From the IMG/VR virus record IMGVR_UViG_3300012017_001267, positions 1 to 30,735 of that record: a DNA stretch of 30,735 bases. One strand, written 5' to 3'. Source of the DNA: a virus. A program made the position numbers and the translations under genes. Positions 19,440-30,735 of this stretch are shown here, piece after piece. Each line of letters opens with the position of its first letter. Position 1 is the first letter of the stretch. The notes beneath the pieces were generated by a model. The model did no database searches. It was not told the DNA's origin and saw only the letters and a program-made list of their open reading frames with translations.

Positions 19440-21962
19440 ATGACTTACATTTTAACTGAAGAAGTATTGCGTTTACAGAAGATTGCGGGTATTGAAACTA
19501 AACCCCAAGGATCTACATTAGAAGAAATTTTATTAGAAGCTTATATAGGACTTTATTGTTTACAAAATAATTTATTATTAGAAAATCTTGATGAAGGGAT
19601 AATAGATACTTTAAAATCTAAAATTAAAAAACTTAATTTAAAGCCTACAGTAGGTTTAGTTGCTTCTATGTTAAGAGGTTTAAAGGATACTTTAACAGAT
19701 GAAGGGTACCAAAAAATAATAAATTTAATCCAAGATTATGAGGGATCTAAAAATATATCTCAAATAGCAGATTATATTAATCAAAATCTTGGCGTGTTAA
19801 GTGAAGGTATTTTTGATTTATTTAGAAATAAAAAAACAGGAGATGCTAATGTTTTATCTAAATCTATTCTTTCTACTTTAACTTTTATTATTCTTTTTAA
19901 TTTAGCTTCTAATACCTTTTTTTCTCAAGCTCAAGCTAATGTTGATAAAGTTCCCCCTACTATAGAAAATCCTGAAGGTACAGCTAATTCTTTAGATAAC
20001 ATTAGTGACTCTACTAAAAATATTCTTGATCAAGCAAGTGAAGCTGCCGATGAAATTATAGGGAGTGATACAGGATCTACAGGAGATAATCCAGTAACTA
20101 CTGATAATGATGGAAAAACTATTAAAGTAGGTTTTAATACAGGAGAATTTGAAATTTCAGATGAAGATAAAGTTGCTAAAGAAATAGCTGATGATATTAT
20201 AAAACAAGCCAAAGATAAAAAGATCAAGAATGTAAAATTAGGTATAAAAGGTCTAATATCAAATACACCCGGAGCAGGAGATGATGATCCTGATGGCCCA
20301 GGTAAAAATGGATTAGGTGAAAAACGTTTAGAAGCTGGTAAAAATATAGTTAAAAAGGTAAATGATATAATTAAAAAAACGTTTCCTGGGTCCGAGATTA
20401 GTATTGAAGATGAAGGCACCAATGTAAATGATCCTGGGGCAGAAGTAGAAGTAGATTCTAAAGAAGCAAAAGATAATCAAGCGGTATCTTTTACTGTCTT
20501 AGATATGGAAACAGAAACAACAATAGATTCACCAGATGCTGCTTTAACTTATTTTAGAAGCCCTAAAGCTTTACAACCTGATGGAAATAAGTATTATACT
20601 ATATTAGGTTATTTTCTACCATTAATTACAAATAATAAACAACCTTCAAAAGAATTTATGGAAATTCTTGATATGAAAGAAGGAGATATTATTAATGATA
20701 GTTTTATTAATAAAAAACTTAGTAAACTTCCTAAACAATACCCATTAGATAGTCCTAAAGCTAAAGAAGCAGGAAAGGTAATACGAATATTATCTTGGGC
20801 CCAAAAAGTTAAAAAAAATCCCAAATCTATTGGAGAATTTTTTAAGAGTTTAGATCCAAAAATTAATATTCCTTGGGAAAAACGTGTACTTACTAAACCT
20901 GGTGAGAGAGGTAAAGCAGCATTTACTGCAGGATCAGGAATTACTCAAACCCCTGTTCCTAGTTCTCAAGCTCAAGATATATTACGAGGAGTAGGAGCTA
21001 CCGGTAGCCCAGATTTAGCTGAAATAAAATTATTTAACATATATAAAAACTTACTTTTAGAGGCAACAATAACAACCTGGAAAGAACTTCCTGATTATGA
21101 TGAAACTTCTGCTAAGAATAATTTAGGAGAATTAGTTCCTTTGTATGTTTATACTTGGGATGTTAATGGTATGGAAGCAATACAATATATATCTGGGATA
21201 GGTGATGATGGTTCTATAAATAAAGATAATCCTTATAAATCAAGTTGGGAAAAATTTGATACTAAATATCCTGTTCTTTGGAAGAAAGCAACAAATGATT
21301 TGGAATATCTTAAAAATAATAAAAAACCAAATAAATCTTCTAAATCAGATAAACCTACCCAACCCAGTGATGCCACTAAACCAGGCACATCTACTAAACC
21401 AAATTCCCCTACATCTTTTGATACTAAACAAGGTACAACAAAAAATCTTTCAGATATTAATAGAATAATTAAATCTATTAATAGTAATCAAACATTAAAA
21501 ACTTCTTTAAATAAAATAGATACAGTTCAAGAATTTAAAGAATTAGTTTTAGCTATGTTATTAGATCTCCCATTTTATAAAGAAAAACAAACTCAATTAA
21601 AGACTATACTTAATAAAATTAAAGCTCGCGTCCAACCTAGAGAAAAAGGAAAATTTGTTAAAGTTGTAGAAGCCTCTACATTACCTGATGTAGTTAAAAC
21701 CCAAAAAATAATAGATACTTATACCCAACTACAGGGTATATTACCTCAAATAAATTCTGAAGAAGAAGCAATTCAAATAATTATAAGAGCTATTATTCCT
21801 TTCCTAAATCCTAGAATAAAAGATTCAAAAATATTAGTACAAGCTATTACTAGGGCACAAGCTGAATTTGATAAGCAGTTAAAATCGTCTAATGACATAG
21901 ATATAAAAGAACTTTTTGTAAAGATACTCAAAGAATATCTTAATAATATAAAACATGGATAA
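19440..21962 (+). CDS. Large tagged protein with membrane segment and OmpA-like region
   Basis: An 840-aa protein. Residues 5-18 (LTEEVLRLQKIAGI) form the SEE..R.QK.AG-type leader also seen at 24150 and 24508. L-x-E-A occurs at 31-34 and at 539-542, L-x-E-G at 120-123. A hydrophobic segment at about 142-158 is a probable membrane span. Residues about 226-355 resemble an OmpA-like peptidoglycan-binding fold (VGFNTGEFEI; VKLGIKGLIS; NGLGEKRLEAGKNIVKK), although the canonical T-D-x-x-G is not evident. A Lys/Pro/Ser/Thr-rich linker lies at about 620-670. Nothing suggests an enzyme. It could be an internal virion protein released on entry, or a late membrane-associated protein. Function is inferred only. 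Confidence 0.6.
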   Translation: MTYILTEEVLRLQKIAGIETKPQGSTLEEILLEAYIGLYCLQNNLLLENLDEGIIDTLKSKIKKLNLKPTVGLVASMLRGLKDTLTDEGYQKIINLIQDYEGSKNISQIADYINQNLGVLSEGIFDLFRNKKTGDANVLSKSILSTLTFIILFNLASNTFFSQAQANVDKVPPTIENPEGTANSLDNISDSTKNILDQASEAADEIIGSDTGSTGDNPVTTDNDGKTIKVGFNTGEFEISDEDKVAKEIADDIIKQAKDKKIKNVKLGIKGLISNTPGAGDDDPDGPGKNGLGEKRLEAGKNIVKKVNDIIKKTFPGSEISIEDEGTNVNDPGAEVEVDSKEAKDNQAVSFTVLDMETETTIDSPDAALTYFRSPKALQPDGNKYYTILGYFLPLITNNKQPSKEFMEILDMKEGDIINDSFINKKLSKLPKQYPLDSPKAKEAGKVIRILSWAQKVKKNPKSIGEFFKSLDPKINIPWEKRVLTKPGERGKAAFTAGSGITQTPVPSSQAQDILRGVGATGSPDLAEIKLFNIYKNLLLEATITTWKELPDYDETSAKNNLGELVPLYVYTWDVNGMEAIQYISGIGDDGSINKDNPYKSSWEKFDTKYPVLWKKATNDLEYLKNNKKPNKSSKSDKPTQPSDATKPGTSTKPNSPTSFDTKQGTTKNLSDINRIIKSINSNQTLKTSLNKIDTVQEFKELVLAMLLDLPFYKEKQTQLKTILNKIKARVQPREKGKFVKVVEASTLPDVVKTQKIIDTYTQLQGILPQINSEEEAIQIIIRAIIPFLNPRIKDSKILVQAITRAQAEFDKQLKSSNDIDIKELFVKILKEYLNNIKHG

Positions 21963-22398
21963 TTTTAATTTAAAAAAATTCTTAGTAGAAAATAAATTAA
22001 CTAAAAATAGTCAATTAAATGAATCGTATGTGGATCCGGAAACTACAAAAACTTTTAAAGAACTAGGTATATTTACATGGGATGATGTAACTAGTTTTAT
22101 GGAAAATGAACCTATTATAAAAAAGTTTTTACCAAATATTGCAAATATAGGCTTAAGAACTTCTGGCAGACATTTCACAATTAAAAGAATAACAGAAAAA
22201 GCATTGATTGTTGAGTATGGGTATACTCAATTTGCTAGGGGTAAGTCTGGTCAAACCGGTGTTATCCCAAAATCAGTAATGACAATAAATCCAACTATGT
22301 CAAGGGTTGTTTATATGAACGGTGAGTATGCTAATGCAAGAATATTTGTTGAGGTGGCAGATTGGTTTGAGAAAAAAAATTATGAAATGTTTAATTAA
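21955..22398 (+). CDS. Tagged hypothetical protein, partner of the 840-aa protein
   Basis: A 147-aa protein whose first ~23 residues (DNFNLKKFLVENKLTKNSQL, then NE) form a charged helix ending in L-N-E, the same ending as the leaders at 24150 and 24508. The rest is a compact alpha/beta domain (FTWDDVTSFMENEPIIKKFL; TSGRHFTIKRITEKALIVEY). No catalytic motif is recognised. It overlaps the 840-aa gene by 8 nt and is followed by a terminator, so the two genes form one late unit and their products may act together. Confidence 0.65.
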   Translation: MDNFNLKKFLVENKLTKNSQLNESYVDPETTKTFKELGIFTWDDVTSFMENEPIIKKFLPNIANIGLRTSGRHFTIKRITEKALIVEYGYTQFARGKSGQTGVIPKSVMTINPTMSRVVYMNGEYANARIFVEVADWFEKKNYEMFN

Positions 22399-22418
22399 TT
22401 AATAAAATCACTTAAAGT

Positions 22419-22447
22419 AAAGCTTGGTTTTCCAAGCTTTCTTTTTT
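22419..22447 (+). terminator. Rho-independent terminator
   Basis: A perfect 9-bp stem AAAGCTTGG/CCAAGCTTT with a TTTT loop (22419-22427, 22432-22440), followed by C and six Ts. It closes the 19440-22398 unit. The stem core GCTTGG/CCAAGC is the same as in the terminator at 24825. Confidence 0.85.
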
Positions 22448-22453
22448 ATATTA

Positions 22454-23392
22454 ATGGTTATGGTAAATCAAACTCTAGTTGCACTAGTAAACTCTGTACT
22501 TGGTACTGGAAAGCTTACTGCTAGGGGCAATGCTGCTTATACTTGCCCTTTTTGCAAACACACCAAACCAAAACTTGAAATAAACTTTGATGAAGAATCA
22601 AAGAGCTATGAGAGTTGGCATTGTTGGGTTTGCGATAAGAAAGGTAAAAAGATACACCAAATGTTTAAGCTCATTGGTGTACCAGGAGAAAAACTTATAG
22701 AACTTAAATCTATAGTTAAAACATATTTTGCTATAGATGTTCCTAAACAAGAAGAAAAAGTAGAGCTACCAAAAGAATTTAAATCGCTACTTGACATCAC
22801 ACAACACGACATTATAGGAAGACATGCTTTAGCTTACCTCAAATCTAGAGGTATTACAAAAGACGATATTGTTAAGTACAATATGGGATATTGCGAAAAG
22901 GGAAGATATGCTAATCACATTATTATCCCATCCTACGATGCAAACGGCAATTTGAATTATTTTACTGCTAGAACATTCAACCAATCCAGCACTGTAAAAT
23001 ATAAAAACCCATCTACATCTCGCAACATAATACCATTTGAAATATTTATAAACTGGAATGTGCCTGTTATATTATGTGAAGGCCCGTTTGATGCTCTAGC
23101 AATTAAACGAAACGCAATACCATTACTTGGTAAAACAATACAATCTAGTTTAATGAAAAAACTTGTTACATCAGCTGTAGAAAAAATATATATAGCGTTA
23201 GACAAAGATGCACAAAAACAAGCATTAAACTTTTGCGAAAACTTGATAAAAGAAGGAAAAGAAGTATATCTTGTAGATTTACAAGACAAAGATCCTGCAG
23301 ACATGGGATTTAAAAATTTTACCCATCTTATTCAGGAAACTTATCCTTTAACATTCTCTGATCTTTTAGAGAAAAAACTCCAACTAATATGA
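22454..23392 (+). CDS. DNA primase, gp61/DnaG-like (zinc finger + Toprim)
   Basis: Start taken at ATG 22454 (ATG 22460 is also possible), since anything upstream lies in the terminator. The 312-aa product has an N-terminal zinc-binding site C31-x2-C34 (CPFC) with C57-x2-C60 (CWVC), then a Toprim domain: E209 in ILCEGPFDALAI, D250-x-D252 in IALDKDAQ, and a following DPAD. This is the arrangement of T4 gp61 and DnaG primases, which make RNA primers for lagging-strand synthesis with a DnaB-type helicase (not in this window). The gene heads a block bounded by two terminators and overlaps the nuclease gene by 4 nt. No late-type element precedes it, consistent with an early or middle class. Confidence 0.88.
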   Translation: MVMVNQTLVALVNSVLGTGKLTARGNAAYTCPFCKHTKPKLEINFDEESKSYESWHCWVCDKKGKKIHQMFKLIGVPGEKLIELKSIVKTYFAIDVPKQEEKVELPKEFKSLLDITQHDIIGRHALAYLKSRGITKDDIVKYNMGYCEKGRYANHIIIPSYDANGNLNYFTARTFNQSSTVKYKNPSTSRNIIPFEIFINWNVPVILCEGPFDALAIKRNAIPLLGKTIQSSLMKKLVTSAVEKIYIALDKDAQKQALNFCENLIKEGKEVYLVDLQDKDPADMGFKNFTHLIQETYPLTFSDLLEKKLQLI

Positions 23393-24153
23393 TACTAAAA
23401 CACTCGTATGACAGGATACTAGAAATATCCGATGACCATAAGCAAATTACAATGCCCGATTCCCGTTACTATAGACGTAACGGAGAATATTATCCATCTA
23501 TCACTTATGTGTTACAATATTACCCAAAGGGTAAATATTTTGAAAATTGGCTTAAACAAGTAGGATATGCTTCAGAATATATAGTTAAAAAAGCATCCGA
23601 AGAAGGTACTCAAGTACACAATTTAGTTGAAAAATATCTAAACGGAGAAGAATTAAACTATCTATCCAAAAATGGAGATCCAATGTATGCTCCTGATGTT
23701 TGGCAAATGTTTTTACGATTTACAGAGTTTTGGGAAACATATAATCCTAAACTCATCGAAACCGAAGTTCATTTATTTTCAGATGAACTTAAAGTAGCAG
23801 GAACATGCGATTTGATTTGTGAAATAGATGGTAAATTATGGTTATTAGACGTTAAAACATCAAATCATATGCAAACCACCTACGAACTACAAACCGCAGT
23901 TTATGGTAAATGTTACGAAGAATGTTTTGGTAAAACTATAGAAAACTATGGAATACTGTGGTTAAAATCATCAAAACGCAAAGCTAACAAAGAAAAAATG
24001 CAAGGGAAGGGATGGGAAATAGTTACATCAGAAAGATCGCAGAGTGAGAATCTCCACATATTTATGATGGTAAAACAATTGTTTGATTTGGAGAACCCAA
24101 ACGCGGAACCACAATTTGAACAATTTAAAACTATTGTAAAAAGAACAACATGA
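23389..24153 (+). CDS. PD-(D/E)XK exonuclease (RecB/Cas4-like fold)
   Basis: A 254-aa protein with all motifs of the PD-(D/E)XK superfamily in order: H77 in GTQVHNLVEKYL, E124/E126 in LIETEVHLF, D141 in GTCDLI, D154-V-K156 in LWLLDVKTSN, and the Q168-x3-Y172 motif in LQTAVYG. No four-cysteine iron-sulfur cluster is visible, so it is RecB-like rather than a full Cas4 or AddB type. In phages such enzymes degrade DNA ends during recombination or recycle host DNA. Overlap with the primase gene by 4 nt (ATGA) places it in replication/recombination. A role as a single-strand exonuclease or a T4 gp46/47 substitute is inference. Confidence 0.88.
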   Translation: MILKHSYDRILEISDDHKQITMPDSRYYRRNGEYYPSITYVLQYYPKGKYFENWLKQVGYASEYIVKKASEEGTQVHNLVEKYLNGEELNYLSKNGDPMYAPDVWQMFLRFTEFWETYNPKLIETEVHLFSDELKVAGTCDLICEIDGKLWLLDVKTSNHMQTTYELQTAVYGKCYEECFGKTIENYGILWLKSSKRKANKEKMQGKGWEIVTSERSQSENLHIFMMVKQLFDLENPNAEPQFEQFKTIVKRTT

Positions 24154-24203
24154 AAAAACAAATCCTATCCGAAGAATTTCAACGCATGCAAAAGCTTGCT
24201 GGT
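24150..24203 (+). repeat. Leader-coding direct repeat, copy 1
   Basis: The 54 bases coding for the first 18 residues of the 24150 product match 24508-24561 at 49 of 54 positions, with the start codons aligned. Downstream sequence diverges within a few codons. This is a duplicated leader rather than a duplicated gene. Confidence 0.85.
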
Positions 24204-24506
24204 ATTATTACTGAATCACAGTTAAATGAAAATGAAGAGGTTAATTTATTGCAATTTATTAAAGCTAATAAAAACGAAATAGCTAAAAAACTAAAAGCAA
24301 TTCGTTTAGAAGATATTGAAAAAGATGATATGGGTGATATTGGAGCATTAGCAATATATGACGATGATGGTGATGAAATGGAAAGCGGAATATCATTTAG
24401 ATATGCTAAAGATGGAACCAAAAATTTTACAGGTGAAGATGGTGCTAAACCTAGGCCAATAAATGTGGCAGGAGAAAAATTAATGTATATTGAATATAAT
24501 ATTTAA
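24150..24506 (+). CDS. Small protein with EF-x-RMQKLAG leader (A)
   Basis: A 118-aa protein starting MKKQILSEEFQRMQKLAGI and then ITESQLNE. The leader is almost identical to that of the next gene and related to those at 19440 and at the C-terminus of the 28930 product. The body is acidic (about half of residues 60-90 are D/E/G) and ends in alpha/beta sequence (INVAGEKLMYIEYNI). No enzyme motif is seen. It overlaps the nuclease gene by 4 nt, so it is translated with replication genes. If the leader is a head-sorting tag, the body would be cargo. Function unknown. Confidence 0.65.
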   Translation: MKKQILSEEFQRMQKLAGIITESQLNENEEVNLLQFIKANKNEIAKKLKAIRLEDIEKDDMGDIGALAIYDDDGDEMESGISFRYAKDGTKNFTGEDGAKPRPINVAGEKLMYIEYNI

Positions 24507-24507
24507 C

Positions 24508-24561
24508 ATGAAAAAACAATTAATATCCGAAGAATTTAAACGCATGCAGAAGCTTGCTGGT
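24508..24561 (+). repeat. Leader-coding direct repeat, copy 2
   Basis: Second copy of the 54-base leader repeat, identical to copy 1 at 49 of 54 positions. The five differences fall in codons 5, 6, 11 and 14; that in codon 14 is synonymous. Confidence 0.85.
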
Positions 24562-24798
24562 TTTCAATTAAACGAAAACGAGCAAATGTTTGAGGCTAAA
24601 GAAGATCTATTCAACAAATATAAATCCAAAATCGAAACACTTCGTGATGAATTTATTGCCGATTTAAAATCGAATTTAAAAGATCTTAAAAAATTATCTA
24701 AAGAAGATAAAACCAAATTATCTCAAATGGTTCGTAATCTTACGGGAGCTGTAGATGATGCGTTGAGTGAGGGTAAGAAAATAGAAGATACCGAATAA
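24508..24798 (+). CDS. Small protein with EF-x-RMQKLAG leader (B)
   Basis: Start at ATG 24508, 1 nt after the previous stop; an in-frame upstream ATG at 24490 lies inside the preceding gene and would break the leader match. The 96-aa product begins MKKQLISEEFKRMQKLAGF and QLNENE. The leader matches copy A, except that four residues before QLNE are missing here. The rest is a charged helical domain (KYKSKIETLRDEFIADLKSN; TKLSQMVRNLTGAVDDALSE) unlike copy A. The gene is last before a terminator. The leader-plus-unrelated-body pattern supports a modular tag. Function unknown. Confidence 0.65.
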   Translation: MKKQLISEEFKRMQKLAGFQLNENEQMFEAKEDLFNKYKSKIETLRDEFIADLKSNLKDLKKLSKEDKTKLSQMVRNLTGAVDDALSEGKKIEDTE

Positions 24799-24824
24799 TC
24801 TAAAAAGTACATATAATAATTCAG

Positions 24825-24850
24825 AAGGCTTGGGTATCCAAGCCTTTTTT
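24825..24850 (+). terminator. Rho-independent terminator
   Basis: A perfect 9-bp stem AAGGCTTGG/CCAAGCCTT (24825-24833, 24838-24846) with a GTAT loop, and a further TTTT. It ends the primase-nuclease unit and lies immediately before a late-promoter-like element, so one unit stops where the next begins. It shares its stem core with the terminator at 22419. Confidence 0.85.
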
Positions 24851-24852
24851 CA

Positions 24853-24862
24853 TATATTTATA
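24853..24862 (+). promoter_or_regulatory. Late-promoter-like element TATATTTATA
   Basis: Exact element followed by ACAAAAT, two bases after the terminator T-run and 12 nt before ATG 24875. It decides the start of the kinase gene: an upstream frame-open TTG at 24830 lies inside the terminator hairpin and is therefore unlikely. Confidence 0.7.
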
Positions 24863-24874
24863 ACAAAATCTGCT

Positions 24875-25636
24875 ATGATCAGACTGATATCCCTCTTAAG
24901 AGAAGCTATTGAAAAACCTAAAGCTATATTTTTAGCAGGTCCGGCTGGCTCAGGGAAATCTACAATAGCAAAACAACTATTACCTTCAGATATGCCTGTT
25001 CTAAACATTGATGACACATACGAACAAATGTTAAAAGATACAGGTTTAGGGATGGATATAAAAAATTTTACACCTGATCAACTTTCTCAAGCTGCTAAAT
25101 TAATGGCATCTGCTAGAAAAGTTACAGACGAAAAATATCAAGAACTACTTAAAAGTCTTAATAATATTATAATAGACGGAACAGCAGGAGCATCGGGTCC
25201 TATTCGCAAGAAAAAAGAACAACTTGAAGCTTTAGGATACGATACAATGATGTTAATGTTATATGTTTCTCCTATAACATCTCTAGAACGCAATCAAAAT
25301 CGTCAACGCAGTTTACTCCCGGGTATTGTATTACGCACTTGGAGAGATGTAAATTCAAATATAGATACATACAGAGATATGTTTGGGGAAGATAAATTTA
25401 TTTTAATAAACAATGACCCCTCAGATGCTGAAACACAATTTGATCCTGAGGATGTTAAGGCAAGATTTTTTGATACTTCTACTGCTAAGGGCAAACCTAA
25501 AACACCAGAAGAACAAGCTAAATCAGATGCTGAAGCAGCAAAACTAAATCAAGACATACAACAAATGGTAGATACACTACCTCAGTTTGATAGTTTATCT
25601 ACAGCTAAAACTAAAATAAACCAATTTTTATCATGA
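24875..25636 (+). CDS. P-loop kinase-like protein (zeta-toxin / AAA_33 type)
   Basis: A 253-aa protein starting at ATG 24875. The Walker A motif GPAGSGKS at residues 22-29 is followed by a hydrophobic strand ending in two Asp (VLNIDD), then IIIDGTAG as a Walker-B-like strand. An Arg-rich lid region follows (SLERNQNRQRSLLPGIVLRTW), as in nucleoside/polynucleotide kinases and zeta-type kinases. The substrate is not determined; DNA or RNA 5' ends, nucleotides or a sugar-nucleotide are all possible. The first ~12 residues (MIRLISLLREAI) form a short amphipathic helix containing L-R-E-A, in the same place as other leaders here. The C-terminal 50 residues are a polar linker plus a helix. It overlaps the next gene by 4 nt. 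Confidence 0.75.
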   Translation: MIRLISLLREAIEKPKAIFLAGPAGSGKSTIAKQLLPSDMPVLNIDDTYEQMLKDTGLGMDIKNFTPDQLSQAAKLMASARKVTDEKYQELLKSLNNIIIDGTAGASGPIRKKKEQLEALGYDTMMLMLYVSPITSLERNQNRQRSLLPGIVLRTWRDVNSNIDTYRDMFGEDKFILINNDPSDAETQFDPEDVKARFFDTSTAKGKPKTPEEQAKSDAEAAKLNQDIQQMVDTLPQFDSLSTAKTKINQFLS

Positions 25637-25989
25637 AACTAAACCAATTACGCCAATTAATTAAGGAAGAACTAGAAGCAATACAACAAGAAGAATATAC
25701 TCCTATAGACGAAGTAGGTAAATTTTTTGTAGTTAGAAAACCTAAAGGAAAAATGACCAAAGAAGATATGGTATATGAAGCTACTGTATTTGATGAGATT
25801 AAAATGGACGAAACAAAAGGAATCTATAAAAATAAATCCGAAGCTAATCGTCACGCTACAGAATCTCTAAAAGAATACGACATGCAACTTAAAGAAATGG
25901 AAGAGGCTATGAAAGAATTTAGAGAAGCTAAAAAAGGTATTGACGACAAGAAAAAAGCAGCTAAAGAAAAAATCGAAAAACTTAAGTAA
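25633..25989 (+). CDS. Small coiled-coil protein with K/E helical leader
   Basis: A 118-aa protein opening MKLNQLRQLIKEELEAIQQ, a charged helix like those of the 5111 and 28930 products. The middle (GKFFVVRKPKGKMTKEDMVY) is a small beta-like domain. The C-terminal ~45 residues are a strongly charged coiled coil (KEMEEAMKEFREAKKGIDDK). There is no catalytic motif. It is coupled to the kinase gene by the ATGA overlap and followed after 2 nt by the fusion protein, so it belongs to the same late unit. Possibly a virion-internal or scaffold-associated protein; the function is unknown. Confidence 0.65.
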   Translation: MKLNQLRQLIKEELEAIQQEEYTPIDEVGKFFVVRKPKGKMTKEDMVYEATVFDEIKMDETKGIYKNKSEANRHATESLKEYDMQLKEMEEAMKEFREAKKGIDDKKKAAKEKIEKLK

Positions 25990-25991
25990 TA

Positions 25992-27950
25992 GTGAACCAA
26001 CTTATTAAACATTTAATAGGGGAACTTCTTGAAGGTAAACAAGTCATAGGTTTGTATGGAGGAGGTTTTAAACCACCTACTAAAGGACACTTTGATGTTG
26101 TAGAACAAGCTTTAAAAGAATATCCCGAATTAGATAAACTTATAATTTATGTTGGGGGTGGAGTTAGAGATGGTATTACCCAAGAACAATCTTTAGCGGT
26201 TTGGGATCAATATAAAGATCTTTTGGATAGTAAAGTTGATATTCAACCTTCCCCTTCTCCTATAGGTGATATTATACGCTATGGTAGAGATAATCCCGAT
26301 CAAATTGTATATTTCTTTTTAGGAGAAAGAGAAGGTAAAGAAAGCGATATAGCTGATACAGCAAGTCGCACTAGGAATATTGAAGAAAAATATCCAAATA
26401 TAAAAATAAAAGTTATTAAATCCCCTGATACTGGGATTAGTGGAACAGCAACTCGTAAAGTACTTCTCAACCCAGAGAAAACTTTAGAGGATTTTAAGCA
26501 GTTTCTTCCTGATAAGCTATCCGAAGAGGAAAAACAGCAAGTATACGACTTGTTAAAAAAAGGAGTAGTAAAAGAGGGAACTTGCGGATACGATACAAAC
26601 GCTGAAACCGGCGAAAAACTAGATACACCTGGTGGTATATCTGAAGCTGATCCTAAAAAAGGAACAGGCAAAAAACCAAAAGGCTCAGGCCGTAGATTAT
26701 ACACAGACGAAGATCCAAGTGATACTGTGAAAGTTAAATTTTCTACTAAACAGGATATTATAGATACTTTATCTAAAGAATCTTTTAAATCTAAATCACA
26801 CGCACGCCAATCCCAAATAATTAATCTAATACACCAACGTGTTAGGGCAGCATATGAAAGAGCTAAAGATCCTGAGGTTAAATCGCGTTTAAAAAATGCT
26901 TTAGAATACGCTGAACAGAGAAAAGAAGCATCTAAAGAAAAAACAAAACGTTTACGCACACAAAAAGAAAATGTAGCACCAAACCATTCAGGTAAATCTT
27001 CTCCATACGGCTCAGGATATAAACCACTTCTTCTTGAAATATCTAAATTTATGATAAACCAAGGTATGGAAATTCAACCATTACCTAAAGTTCAATTTAT
27101 AGACGATGATACGGATAATGCCCAAGATATCCTAGGGACAACCGCATACTATGACCCACAATCTAAAACTATTGTATTATATACTTTAGATCGTCATCCT
27201 AAAGATATTTTGCGTTCGTTTTGCCATGAAATGGTACATCACGAACAAAATATGAAGGGTACATTAGGGAATATTAGAACCCAAAACACAACCGAAGATT
27301 CTCATTTGGACGAAATCGAAAGAGAAGCATACGAAAGAGGAAATATAATGTTTCGAAATTGGACAGATTCTCTTTCAAAAAAAACTTGGCAACCTGATTC
27401 TCAACCATTATATTCGGAATACGGGGTTAAAGAGAATGATGAAAAGATGAGAGAAGAGAAAGGGGATAAGGGAACCGGGGAATATGAGATATATTGTGAT
27501 ATGGATGGGGTATTGTGTGATTTTGATAAACGTTTTATGGAATTTTCAAATGGTATACCTCCGGGAAAATATGAAAGTAAATTTGGAAAAAAAGCATTTT
27601 GGAAATTAATTAGTGAAAAAGGTGTTGGATACTGGGTTGGTATTCCCTGGATGTCAGATGGTAAACAACTTTGGAATTATATTAAACCCTATAATCCCTC
27701 ACTATTATCAGCTCCCTCTATGGAAGAATCATCTCGTTTAGGTAAACGCTTGTGGGTTAGAAACAACATCCCAGGTACTAAACTTATACTACGTTCAGCA
27801 GAACAAAAACAAGAATTTGCTAATCCAAATGCTATTTTAATAGACGATAGACCCTCAAATATAGAACAATGGAGAGCCAAAGGGGGTATAGGCATATTAC
27901 ACACCTCAGCAAACGAAACAATTGAACAACTTAAAGAACTAGGACTATGA
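25992..27950 (+). CDS. Nucleotidyltransferase - metallopeptidase - HAD fusion protein
   Basis: A 652-aa protein starting at GTG 25992, 2 nt after the previous stop. Residues 1-15 are a leader-like helix. Residues about 18-160 form a cytidylyltransferase-like (HIGH-type) domain: GGGFKPPTKGH at 23-33 and ISGTATR at 149-155. Residues about 205-330 are a basic, Gly/Lys-rich linker and helical domain (SGRRLYTDEDPSDTV). H412-E413-x-x-H416 in CHEMVHHEQ, with a following E-rich helix, indicates a zinc metallopeptidase-like domain. D503-x-D505 in YCDMDGVLCDFD and D618-D619 in LIDDRPSNI mark a HAD phosphatase (5'-nucleotidase-like). Three enzyme folds in one phage chain is unusual. Whether it stays uncut is unknown. 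Confidence 0.8.
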   Translation: MNQLIKHLIGELLEGKQVIGLYGGGFKPPTKGHFDVVEQALKEYPELDKLIIYVGGGVRDGITQEQSLAVWDQYKDLLDSKVDIQPSPSPIGDIIRYGRDNPDQIVYFFLGEREGKESDIADTASRTRNIEEKYPNIKIKVIKSPDTGISGTATRKVLLNPEKTLEDFKQFLPDKLSEEEKQQVYDLLKKGVVKEGTCGYDTNAETGEKLDTPGGISEADPKKGTGKKPKGSGRRLYTDEDPSDTVKVKFSTKQDIIDTLSKESFKSKSHARQSQIINLIHQRVRAAYERAKDPEVKSRLKNALEYAEQRKEASKEKTKRLRTQKENVAPNHSGKSSPYGSGYKPLLLEISKFMINQGMEIQPLPKVQFIDDDTDNAQDILGTTAYYDPQSKTIVLYTLDRHPKDILRSFCHEMVHHEQNMKGTLGNIRTQNTTEDSHLDEIEREAYERGNIMFRNWTDSLSKKTWQPDSQPLYSEYGVKENDEKMREEKGDKGTGEYEIYCDMDGVLCDFDKRFMEFSNGIPPGKYESKFGKKAFWKLISEKGVGYWVGIPWMSDGKQLWNYIKPYNPSLLSAPSMEESSRLGKRLWVRNNIPGTKLILRSAEQKQEFANPNAILIDDRPSNIEQWRAKGGIGILHTSANETIEQLKELGL

Positions 27951-28354
27951 AAGTAGACAGAATTATAATAGATATAGAAGGTAATATTAATGACTTCAAA
28001 ACTAGCCTTACAGATGATTTTACAAAATACAAAGGGTATAAAGTAAAATCTACAACCGAAAATAGAACATTTTTAAACGATGCTGGTGAGAAAATCCAAA
28101 AACCAGTTCATCTACTTAATGTTGAAGATACTTCCCCCATTGGTAAAGGTAAAGAAGCACTCATTACTCTAATCCCAGGTGATAATACCATTAAAATAGT
28201 AATCACAGGCGAAAACAAAAAACCTCTAGAAGATAAAATAAATCAATTCATTGGTAAATCCTCTAAATTTAATAAAGTAGGGGGTAAGATAAAAAAATCT
28301 AAATTAAAAGAAATAATAAAAGGCTATGTTAAAGAAGCAATTCAAAGAGCGTGA
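27947..28354 (+). CDS. Hypothetical protein with C-terminal K/E helix
   Basis: A 135-aa protein with an alpha/beta body (DRIIIDIEGNINDFKTSLTD; IPGDNTIKIVITGENKKPLE), then a basic linker and a C-terminal helix KSKLKEIIKGYVKEAIQRA. The helix resembles the N-terminal leader of the 5111 product (FKKIIKEAVREAIQ). The helix is at the end rather than the start of the chain. It overlaps the fusion gene by 4 nt, and its last 29 nt also encode the start of the next protein in another frame. No enzyme motif; function unknown. Confidence 0.65.
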   Translation: MKVDRIIIDIEGNINDFKTSLTDDFTKYKGYKVKSTTENRTFLNDAGEKIQKPVHLLNVEDTSPIGKGKEALITLIPGDNTIKIVITGENKKPLEDKINQFIGKSSKFNKVGGKIKKSKLKEIIKGYVKEAIQRA

Positions 28355-28880
28355 TGTACAACGTCTCCGTAATCTTGTAACTAAAAAATACGGAGATAAA
28401 ACCACGCAAAGTGTAGGTTATACAAAAGTACAAGAGTTTCACAATGAAGGTGATATTTGGGAAGAAGATGGTCGCAAATGGACCATTAAAAACGGGGTAA
28501 AACAAAATATTACTAAATTAGACAAAGCAAAGGAAAAAATTATTTTACCATTATTTTGCCCTTCCTGTAAAAGCCTAATGAAACACAAATACGATAAATT
28601 ATTTTATATTCAATTTAATCATTGTTTTGATTGTCAACTAAAATATGAAGATGAATTAAAACGCCAAGGATTATGGGAAGAACAAGATAAACAACACGTA
28701 AACGATAATGTTGACAATATGATAAAAGATTTTGAAGTATGGGTTGACGAATTGATAAATACAAATGAAACCTATGTTACCGAAGCAGGTGATGTAGAAA
28801 AATGGGTTGGATCTGCTAAATCAAAACTTATAGAACATAAAGACGAAGCTCTTAAATATCTTCAGTCACTAAAGCGATGA
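28326..28880 (+). CDS. Zinc-ribbon protein with KERDVQRLRNL leader
   Basis: A 184-aa protein starting at ATG 28326 inside the preceding gene (29-nt overlap). Residues 5-23 (QFKERDVQRLRNLVTKKYG) are a charged helix reminiscent of the other leaders. A short conserved-looking block follows (FHNEGDIWEEDGRKWTIKNG). C78-x2-C81 (FCPSC) with C100-x2-C103 (HCFDC) form a probable zinc ribbon. The C-terminal 80 residues are helical and acidic. The zinc ribbon suggests nucleic-acid or protein binding rather than catalysis. Because the start depends on a long overlap, a shorter start is possible, but no later ATG keeps the leader. Confidence 0.7.
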   Translation: MLKKQFKERDVQRLRNLVTKKYGDKTTQSVGYTKVQEFHNEGDIWEEDGRKWTIKNGVKQNITKLDKAKEKIILPLFCPSCKSLMKHKYDKLFYIQFNHCFDCQLKYEDELKRQGLWEEQDKQHVNDNVDNMIKDFEVWVDELINTNETYVTEAGDVEKWVGSAKSKLIEHKDEALKYLQSLKR

Positions 28881-28895
28881 TTTGATTGATCTTGA

Positions 28896-28905
28896 CATAT
28901 TTATA
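28896..28905 (+). promoter_or_regulatory. Late-promoter-like element (variant CATATTTATA)
   Basis: Nine of ten bases match the common element, followed by AACAACA. It lies 24 nt before ATG 28930. A frame-open start at 28882 lies upstream of the element, which argues for 28930 as the real start. A TTGAC lies directly 5' of the core. Confidence 0.55.
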
Positions 28906-28929
28906 AACAACACTCTAAACAAATATATA

Positions 28930-29619
28930 ATGAAAAGATCCGAACTTAAAGAGTTAATTCGTAAAAATATTATTCAAGAATTATCTATTGATGATACTAC
29001 TTCAGAATATGATTTTCTATCCGAAAAAAAGAAAGATGAAGAAGAGGATATAGAAATCACAGCTGATGAAACTGACACAATTGAAGAACCAGCAACAGAT
29101 GCTCCATCCCCAGAAGATCCTGCTTTATCAGATGCAGATCAAGAATATTTAAATACTCTTGAAGACCTAAAAAATAAAGCTAAAGAAATGGGTGACGAAA
29201 AACTCGAAAACCAAATTGATAATACAATTACATATTTTACTCGTCAACACGTTGTTAAAGAAGGCGATACAGATTATGCTAGAGCTAAAGATGCCAAACG
29301 TTTAGGTACAAAAGGCGAAAAAAATATTTACGGAGCAGGAGTAAAGAAAGGTGAAGAAGTTGAAAAAAAGAGACTTCAAAAAGAAATAAGCACCTATGGC
29401 CCTGAAGAAATGGATAATTTAGTTAACCGCAACGATGTTAAAACTCTTATTTTATCTACTCGAAATATTATTAAAACACTTAAAGACGAAGGATTTGATG
29501 AAGATGATGTTTATAACTTTATTGTAGATAAAATTACAACTTTAGACGATGGTAGTGAATCATTGATGGAAAATTATGAACTTCGTCGCTTACAAAGAAT
29601 AGCAGGCCTAATCAAATAA
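28930..29619 (+). CDS. Acidic protein with leader at N- and C-termini
   Basis: A 229-aa protein with start chosen after the promoter-like element. It begins MKRSELKELIRKNIIQEL (K/E-helix leader) and ends ELRRLQRIAGLIK at residues 217-229, the other leader type, at the C-terminus. Residues about 30-70 are strongly acidic and Pro/Thr-rich. The centre contains TRQHVVKEGDTDYARAKD and KNIYGAGVKKGEEVEKKRL. The size, acidity and helical content resemble T4-type scaffold/core proteins, but no sequence signature proves it. It starts a final late unit with the next two genes. Function is not established. Confidence 0.65.
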   Translation: MKRSELKELIRKNIIQELSIDDTTSEYDFLSEKKKDEEEDIEITADETDTIEEPATDAPSPEDPALSDADQEYLNTLEDLKNKAKEMGDEKLENQIDNTITYFTRQHVVKEGDTDYARAKDAKRLGTKGEKNIYGAGVKKGEEVEKKRLQKEISTYGPEEMDNLVNRNDVKTLILSTRNIIKTLKDEGFDEDDVYNFIVDKITTLDDGSESLMENYELRRLQRIAGLIK

Positions 29620-29620
29620 A

Positions 29621-30211
29621 ATGATCAACGAAGGATACCAAGAAACTTTTGATAAAGTTAAGCAAGGTATGCTAGGGAATGTCTCTAAACTCATTAAAAA
29701 ATACAAAAACCCAGATGCCATAATATACGGCAAAGCTAGAAAAGAAGCTAAAAAAGTACAAGATATGGAAAATACAGACAAACTTAAAGAAGCAGTTAAA
29801 GCTGCCTTAATGAATGAAAAGAAAAAACCATTCCCTGATTTAACTGGAGATGGTAAAGTAACCCAAGCCGATATTTTAAAAGGTAGAGGGGTTGAGTTAG
29901 ACGAAGACCTAGACTTAGGTCACGAAGACGACGAACCACACATGATTAAAGCCGATTTATATAAAATTGGAAAATACGCTATGGAACTTTATCAAATGGT
30001 AGATCAATTTGAAGGTCAAGGAGAAGTTGATTTCCCGGCTTGGTGGCAATCTAAAATCACTAATGCTGCCTCTATGATCAGCAGCGCAAAACACTACCTT
30101 GAATTTGAACTTAAAGAACCAGAAATTGATGCTATGGTGGGTGTTGCTCAAAATACAGGGGCAATTGATGAAATTAAAGCCAAAGTATTAGCTAGGCTAA
30201 CTAAAAAATAA
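29621..30211 (+). CDS. Protein with dockerin/EF-hand-like loop
   Basis: A 196-aa protein. Residues 73-84 (DLTGDGKVTQAD) fit the loop D-x-x-x-D-G-x-V-T-x-x-D of dockerin-type calcium-binding repeats, with Thr in place of the usual Asp/Asn at loop position 3. Only one loop is present, so it is not a full dockerin. Just before it, KLKEAVKAALMNE (residues 54-66) resembles the leader helices with an L-M-N-E end. The C-terminal half is helical with DFPAWWQSKITNAASM. It starts 1 nt after the previous stop and its own stop overlaps the next start (TAATG). Function unknown; protein-protein binding is plausible. Confidence 0.6.
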   Translation: MINEGYQETFDKVKQGMLGNVSKLIKKYKNPDAIIYGKARKEAKKVQDMENTDKLKEAVKAALMNEKKKPFPDLTGDGKVTQADILKGRGVELDEDLDLGHEDDEPHMIKADLYKIGKYAMELYQMVDQFEGQGEVDFPAWWQSKITNAASMISSAKHYLEFELKEPEIDAMVGVAQNTGAIDEIKAKVLARLTKK

Positions 30212-30687
30212 TGAACCGCGACGAACTTATAATCAAAATCAAATCAATAGCAAAGCAATCCCTTGCTAATCGCCAAAAGGCTGATATAGCTGCTGTTGAA
30301 TACGATGAATTAACTAAATTCCCAGAACTAAAAAAAGTAATAGTAGATTTACTTACTTCGGATTTTGATTATTTCTTAGCATCTATTGATTGGGTAGCCC
30401 CAAAACCAACTACGTTCCGTATTAATTTAAAAAATGAAACAAGTTTTTATCTTATATTTCACCCACGTTCTTGGATAGCACAAGTTGAAGGTAAAAAATA
30501 TTATTTACTTAATTTAAACGAAGAAGAATCAGCAACTAATGCTATTGCCCGTTTATTAAGAATAGGTGCTAAAGTTGAACCTAAAGAAGAAGCAGATACT
30601 GAAATGCCTGCTATTGAAACCCCCGCTGAAACCCCCGTTGAAGAACCAGCAGCCGAAGAAGAAGTGACACCTGAACCCGCAGCATAA
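30211..30687 (+). CDS. Hypothetical protein with acidic Pro/Glu tail
   Basis: A 158-aa protein. The N-terminal helix MNRDELIIKIKSIAKQSL is charged and leader-like. Residues about 35-115 form an alpha/beta domain (FRINLKNETSFYLIFHPRSW; QVEGKKYYLLNLNEEESATN). The last ~40 residues are almost only Glu, Pro, Thr and Ala with repeated AETP/EEPA units. Such tails are usually disordered. It is joined to the genes on both sides by TAATG overlaps. No enzyme motif or recognised family. Confidence 0.65.
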   Translation: MNRDELIIKIKSIAKQSLANRQKADIAAVEYDELTKFPELKKVIVDLLTSDFDYFLASIDWVAPKPTTFRINLKNETSFYLIFHPRSWIAQVEGKKYYLLNLNEEESATNAIARLLRIGAKVEPKEEADTEMPAIETPAETPVEEPAAEEEVTPEPAA

Positions 30688-30735
30688 TGGACCCATTTGA
30701 TATATTTTTAAAGAAATTTACTTACAAATTTCCAA
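30687..30735 (+). CDS. Start of next gene, cut by window end
   Basis: An ATG overlapping the previous TAA by 1 nt opens a frame that runs to the window end (MDPFDIFLKKFTYKFP). Only 16 residues are visible, so nothing can be said about function. The overlap spacing matches the other coupled pairs, which supports a real start. Confidence 0.55.
   Translation, partial: MDPFDIFLKKFTYKFP

Follow-up and report, generated by a model that had tools for sequence, protein, structure and literature searches.

In phage T4 the prohead protease gp21 cleaves after the glutamate of L/I-x-E; the internal head proteins IPI-IPIII and Alt are processed by it, and the first 10 residues of IPIII are enough for targeting a protein into the head; in IPIII, aspartate in place of the site's glutamate prevents processing (PMC9026906). 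The ejection proteins of SPN3US and other phiKZ-like giant phages are likewise cut several times per chain, after x-x-E, by a gp21-related protease (gp175/gp245; PMC10052503); 13 of the 14 mapped sites in SPN3US remove N-terminal propeptides, and the accessible sections of that paper do not describe the release of separate enzymes. As presented in the available parts of these two papers, prohead-protease cuts trim propeptides or break up the scaffold. A third related group, the polyvalent proteins known from phages and from conjugative elements, combines several effector-type domains per chain, frequently with a zincin, and is predicted to be delivered with the DNA (PMC5512222).

Here we describe a gene at positions 25992..27950 (plus strand) of the window, the whole stretch of 30,735 nucleotides analysed (IMG/VR record IMGVR_UViG_3300012017_001267), from what is probably an immuto-like, T4-related myovirus infecting Bacteroidota. 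Like the T4 internal proteins and Alt, the system to which the gene belongs has short leaders that close with a gp21-type site and comprises small basic proteins as well as enzymes; a gp21-type protease is encoded alongside it in near relatives of the window. The T4 examples, however, are single proteins that lose propeptides, whereas here several unrelated enzymes share a chain with a site at each joint and are predicted cargo. As in polyvalent proteins, a chain holds at least two unrelated effector-type domains (nucleotidyltransferase (NTase), zincin and HAD in the window, others in relatives), and pol-beta NTase and GNAT domains are common to the related chains and to the polyvalent proteins of the accessible text. 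Unlike polyvalent proteins, the chains have prohead-protease-type sites at their joints as well as leaders; their putative cargo includes NMNAT-like, NT5C, superoxide dismutase and plastocyanin-like domains, of which the accessible text of PMC5512222 names only "nucleotidases", in passing. The new point is the mode of joining, with prohead-protease-type sites between unrelated enzymes; the chain would be a variant of both T4 internal proteins and polyvalent proteins. No enzyme polyprotein cut by a prohead protease turned up in a literature search on T4-like and marine phages, a search whose coverage is incomplete and leaves novelty unproven.

Three enzyme domains and a basic module in one frame

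The ORF call and translation give a protein of 652 aa with a GTG start and no internal stops; a homologue (L005) has an ATG at the position matching this GTG. The single chain is kept in contigs L001 and L002 (96% identity) and in L004 (63% identity), where an extra pol-beta-like NTase is fused ahead of the shared chain. A sequencing or assembly error joining separate genes, named in the original prediction as one way in which it could fail, might be suspected from several relatives in which the HAD is encoded by a gene of its own beside the others, in many cases with an overlap of a few bases; this explanation is already refuted by the other contigs, which show the same fusion at 96% and 63% identity, and we give it a negligible probability. 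A search for the same domain order in other phages yielded 13 distinct ORFs, that of the window counted, that run NTase, peptidase, HAD in a single frame. The peptidase loci, 48 of them distinct, were collected with the window protein and with the basic module as starting points, so fused forms are over-represented among them; the NTase lies in the same frame as the peptidase in 33, while in 14 further loci the HAD is a separate neighbouring gene. The three are all separate genes in L017 and L018, and L015 and L016 have the peptidase and HAD pair only; adjacency of these two is kept in most relatives. Megablast of window positions 20001-30735 against named phages returned no matches.

The motifs lie where they had been claimed within the 652-aa frame, and the conservation of the catalytic residues among homologues shows that they are not there by chance; together with profile matches, this upholds the three catalytic domains in a phage setting. 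Domain boundaries, taken from profile searches and family alignments, are approximate. The first domain (aa 17-192, 26040..26567, plus strand) is a HIGH-superfamily nucleotidyltransferase of NMNAT/PPAT-like type. It has both signatures of the superfamily's adenylyltransferases, GxFxPxxxGH (GGFKPPTKGH, aa 24-33) and ISxTxxR (ISGTATR, aa 149-155), and the HIGH-type and S-x-T-x-x-R residues vary little or not at all across 36 aligned homologues. It matches TIGR00125, and its profile, compared with solved structures, found NMNATs and PPATs, the best being 1f9a (E 1e-9). These matches fall short of equivalog cut-offs and hold at the superfamily level only, for which reason the description of the domain as a proven NMNAT, or as part of an NAD-rebuilding pathway, was dropped.

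The peptidase domain (aa 350-464, 27039..27383, plus strand) carries HEMVH at aa 412-416 (27225-27239) and a candidate third ligand, E443; H412, E413, H416 and E443 are invariant among 41 homologues. An AlphaFold2 model built from the peptidase alignment (pLDDT 87.4, pTM 0.81) begins with a helix; three strands, the HExxH helix and another long helix follow in this order, with the HExxH helix beside the three-stranded sheet and the third ligand on the next helix. Foldseek gave no matches below E 0.001 for this model, and the scores are modest; the top of both the Foldseek and the VIA lists is nonetheless filled mostly with zincins and their kin (IrrE/PprI, selecase and Wss1, with ArdC lower), and for this reason we regard the zincin fold as supported. 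An HExxH helix outside a zincin fold had been set out beforehand as a refuting outcome, and the zincin reading survived this check: as modelled, the domain is a minimal zincin with predicted zinc binding. Its core fold agrees with the description of polyvalent-protein zincins in the accessible text of PMC5512222, and its match to the polyvalent-protein model PF18818 (MPTase-PolyVal) is only marginal, with hits to 4 of the 41 members and a best E of 0.05. A further HExxH module (GRYD...RHE[LI]EHLT...), by eye unrelated to the first, sits behind an [LIV]xE or similar site between peptidase and HAD in L029, L032 and L088, and also occurs in the C-terminal third of gene 182 of phage immuto.

The C-terminal domain (aa 497-652, 27480..27947, plus strand) is an NT5C-type HAD phosphatase with DMDG at aa 503-506, K606 and DD at aa 618-619; both D of DxD, the lysine and the DD are invariant or nearly so in 30 homologues. 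It matches PHROG 2643 (E 3.6e-23), and its profile finds 5'(3')-deoxyribonucleotidases among solved structures (3bwv, E 5e-7). With Pfam NT5C the window HAD scores 20.5 bits, below the cut-off of 24.8, while the HAD of L006 lies above it. The third enzyme is thus specifically NT5C-like, judged from its sequence, and a deoxyribonucleotide substrate is predicted.

Between the first two enzymes lies a basic helical module (aa 219-327, 26646..26972, plus strand) of about 108 aa and pI 10.1, with a mean column identity of 77% over 49 sequences and relatives encoded in 553 IMG/VR stretches. Its model has a pLDDT of 71 and a disordered first third. Pfam gave no convincing match, sequence and fold searches found no solved relative, and almost no copies were found in named phages or in plasmids. 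The original prediction had seen here a basic linker domain; the basic region is real, but it is not a fixed linker. The module is cleanly missing from L005, is found alone behind a leader of its own (MISLIKILNEILSE/SDPKTGTGKK...), and also occurs within otherwise unrelated chains, the longest of 1411 aa; taken together, this indicates an optional, independently mobile module. An intein or homing element is not favoured, because the stand-alone copies have their own leader. The module is likely to be a small helical protein associated with DNA. It, or shorter relatives of it, also appears in contigs L123-L150, from MAG and single-cell assemblies binned as Flavobacteriales, Pelagibacteraceae, Maricaulis, Trichodesmium and others; many of these may be phage contigs.

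Partner modules vary among relatives, and include superoxide dismutase, plastocyanin-like, GNAT and pol-beta NTase domains. The chain of 1411 aa (L014) consists of NTase, Fe/Mn superoxide dismutase, plastocyanin-like domain, basic module and GNAT; the superoxide dismutase, plastocyanin-like and GNAT domains, at aa 343-768 and 1283-1347, thus stand in one phage chain. A pathway in which the transferase makes and the phosphatase clears a nucleotide-linked product, as had been proposed, finds no support in this free variation of membership, nor in L017 and L018 with their three separate genes.

[LIV]xE sites in leaders and joints

In the window protein, the motif [LIV]xE is present in the leader and at all three joints. 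The leader (aa 1-14, V/MNQLIKHLIGELLE, 25992..26033, plus strand), of a type shared with relatives, is a candidate capsid-targeting sequence; it reads MNQLIKHLIGE/LLE/ and ends in sites of the L/I-x-E type, IGE11 and LLE14. T4 N-termini of similar make are MKTYQEFIAE in IPII and IPIII and MAKINELLRE in gp24 (T4 record). Joint 1 (aa 193-218, 26568..26645) contains VKE195 and ISE218, sites that also stand behind the NTase in relatives; the connector NVAPNHSGKSSPYGSGYKP (aa 328-349, 26973..27038) ends in LLE349; and joint 3 (aa 465-496, 27384..27479) contains VKE481, all on the plus strand. VKE195 and VKE481 have V, where the T4 site uses L or I. The protein has 14 [LIV]xE in total, with 6 in the leader and joints, which make up 15% of its length (binomial p 0.012). 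The other 8 are inside folded domains, so cutting must depend on exposure.

Related chains have the sites at corresponding places, in numbers that overstate independence since related joints have common ancestry. Of 64 non-redundant basic modules, 62 have [LIV]xE in the 10 aa before them (6.4 expected) and 54 the strict [LI]xE (5.1 expected); the connector motif P[YF]GSGY is followed within 8 aa by [LIV]xE in 35 of 40 distinct connectors (3.9 expected). Stand-alone HAD genes have their own short leader with [LIV]xE just before the domain in 15 of 16 distinct copies (for example MYKLTDLYKQIKEE and MKLIQLLREIKKE), although these 16 leaders are a handful of types and not 16 independent events. 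The leader is absent in about half of the related chains, which begin directly with the NTase or the pol-beta-like NTase.

Module breakpoints were defined by all-against-all alignments of 55 non-redundant modular proteins, with no use of the motif. At breakpoints with support of at least 3, [LIV]xE is enriched 3.1- to 3.2-fold, and at module starts with support of at least 10 it is enriched 4.6-fold, while 20-35 aa inside modules it is near or below expectation at those support levels. With the starts of the basic module excluded, the enrichment at breakpoints is still 2.7- to 2.8-fold. One could argue that the motif merely reflects the composition of charged helical linkers, and that the leaders are ordinary amphipathic N-termini; the linkers are indeed rich in E and K, and the related joints are not independent. 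At the same breakpoints, however, control motifs reach only 1.3-1.4 (reversed), 1.0-1.1 ([LIV]E), 1.1-1.2 ([LIV]..E) and 0.5-0.6 ([LIV].D) of expectation, so the enrichment is specific to the motif and its direction. Site-bearing leaders, moreover, cluster in the head-proximal region and not among the early genes of the isolate Flavobacterium phage immuto (MW353176): [LIV]xE occurs within aa 5-24 in 15 of 20 genes at 100.8-119 kb, the region corresponding to that of the window, and in 7 of 11 head genes, vs 37 of 135 early genes, located within the first 80 kb (15/20 against the early genes: Fisher p = 6e-5). We therefore hold an origin by composition to be very improbable.

The chain might also be a stable, uncut multifunctional enzyme of infection, with its three activities in one nucleotide or cofactor pathway. 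Peptidase and HAD are neighbours in most relatives and occur as the only pair in L015 and L016, and both an NMNAT-like enzyme and a nucleotidase use nucleotides. Yet the composition of the chains varies widely, with parts as separate genes in some phages, and an uncut enzyme leaves the site-bearing joints and the leaders of the split HADs unexplained; we judge it quite unlikely.

Head genes and other leader-bearing proteins

Above its cut-off, the gp21 model PF03420 matches 16 of 26 contigs with the system, immuto among them, and none of 14 control genomes. The window fragment is without its own gp21, which is present in immuto and in G002, a contig of 58.7 kb about 96% identical to the window over the polyprotein region. 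Further along G002 there are leader-bearing genes (MIKLLNILKE, MIKLINILSE, MNLISILKQILQE), then terminase, portal, gp21, scaffold and gp23, named by position and by the immuto annotation. Two stretches of reversed G002, 34710-35300 and 36064-36849, are tandem paralogous leader-bearing genes (MIKLLNILKETQILVPRRSPEERQKNYQ...).

Genes 182 and 183 of immuto match the system. Gene 182 (907 aa) has a pol-beta-like NTase, an NMNAT-like NTase and a zincin, and is followed by the NT5C gene 183; the annotation names them merely as NMN adenylyltransferase and 5' nucleotidase. Gene order is similar in immuto and the window from primase and exonuclease onward, but immuto lacks the basic module, and its HAD is encoded apart from the chain, behind a separate leader. 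Candidate cut sites in immuto, which grows on Flavobacterium sp. LMO8 and whose gp21-type protease is gene 200, are VKE/GSSG in gene 182 and LLE or LEE in the gene 183 leader. A search of the literature found no published virion proteomics of immuto.

Upstream of the polyprotein gene, on the same strand, there are further genes with leaders. A P-loop kinase (Zeta toxin/AAA_33-like; Pfam Zeta_toxin E 1.4e-10) at 24875..25636 has the leader MIRLISLLREAIE; its likely start is the ATG at 24875, which G002 shares, and not the TTG at 24830. A small protein at 25633..25989 has the leader MKLNQLRQLIKEELE, of the type found in immuto genes 175, 176 and 190. Two more small proteins at 24150..24798 (24150-24506 and 24490-24798) have N-terminal SEEF[QK]RMQKLAG..., a peptide that ends the scaffold in relatives. 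All four are probable further cargo proteins. Another leader class, M-x-NF[DN]LKKFLVENKLTxNSxLxE, is common to unrelated proteins, encoded at window positions 21955-22398 and by immuto genes 3, 178, 193 and 194.

In immuto and related contigs, R[WF]QKLAGI forms the C-terminus of the presumed scaffold, which occupies the gp22 position. Several small proteins carry this peptide at the N-terminus, and the product of window positions 28882-29619 carries it at the C-terminus. Altogether RxQKLAGI was seen in the window at 24150-24506, 24490-24798, 19440-21962 and 28882-29619, in immuto genes 42, 187 and 203, and in L111, L113, L114 and G002. It is possible that it is a capsid-binding targeting signal copied from the scaffold. 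As a targeting signal of the polyproteins themselves it failed, as none of the polyproteins examined carries it.

A probable head-packaged cargo polyprotein

Based on the leaders, the gp21-type sites and the head-gene context, which bear out the link to virion proteins guessed at in the original prediction, we consider it probable that the polyprotein is head-packaged cargo, targeted by its leader and cut at its joints by a gp21-type prohead protease. In this scheme, the short N-terminal leader would direct the chain to the core of the prohead while the head is being assembled. There a gp21-type serine protease would cleave the leader and all joints, each time behind the glutamate of [LIV]xE. 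The products would be an NMNAT-like adenylyltransferase, the small basic protein of the helical module, a zincin and a 5'(3')-deoxyribonucleotidase; they would remain with the DNA and be carried into the host at infection. A single frame with standard cut sites would let several enzymes be loaded by one targeting signal, and would let recombination swap modules.

The zincin might itself cut the chain, and perhaps its neighbours in trans, after packaging or injection, much as the original prediction had envisaged. The chain does contain a zincin fold with invariant catalytic residues, HExxH is present in 33 of 49 complete related chains, and autoprocessing by zincins is proposed for polyvalent proteins in the accessible part of PMC5512222. 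The motif at the joints, however, is that of gp21; the same sites end the leaders of zincin-free proteins and precede stand-alone basic modules, and L017 and L018 encode the zincin separately. In complete chains free of HExxH, sites are found at 4 of 9 and 7 of 21 breakpoints, vs 1.4 and 3.5 expected, a sample too small to weigh either way. Self-processing, the main rival reading, is weakened by the sites in zincin-free leaders and by the separate zincin gene of some phages, and we regard it as unlikely; cleavage by a gp21-type prohead protease, whose site matches the joints, is the better candidate, and the zincin is more likely a cargo enzyme than the processing protease.

Going beyond this single gene, we lean, with less assurance, towards the view that one widespread group among the aquatic T4-like phages has a standardised cargo system of interchangeable enzyme modules with a protease site per joint, plus several leader classes for single cargo, one of which would copy RxQKLAGI of the scaffold, and that the prohead protease serves as a polyprotein protease liberating injected enzymes. 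If this is true, leader class and [LIV]xE joint together would give a sequence rule for the head-carried, injected proteins of a large group of uncultured aquatic phages, where the question of head content is otherwise answered through virion proteomics of isolates. The role of the prohead protease would widen from propeptide trimming to the release of separate enzymes from a polyprotein, and superoxide dismutase, plastocyanin-like, NMNAT-like and deoxyribonucleotidase domains would be suggested to act at the very start of infection.
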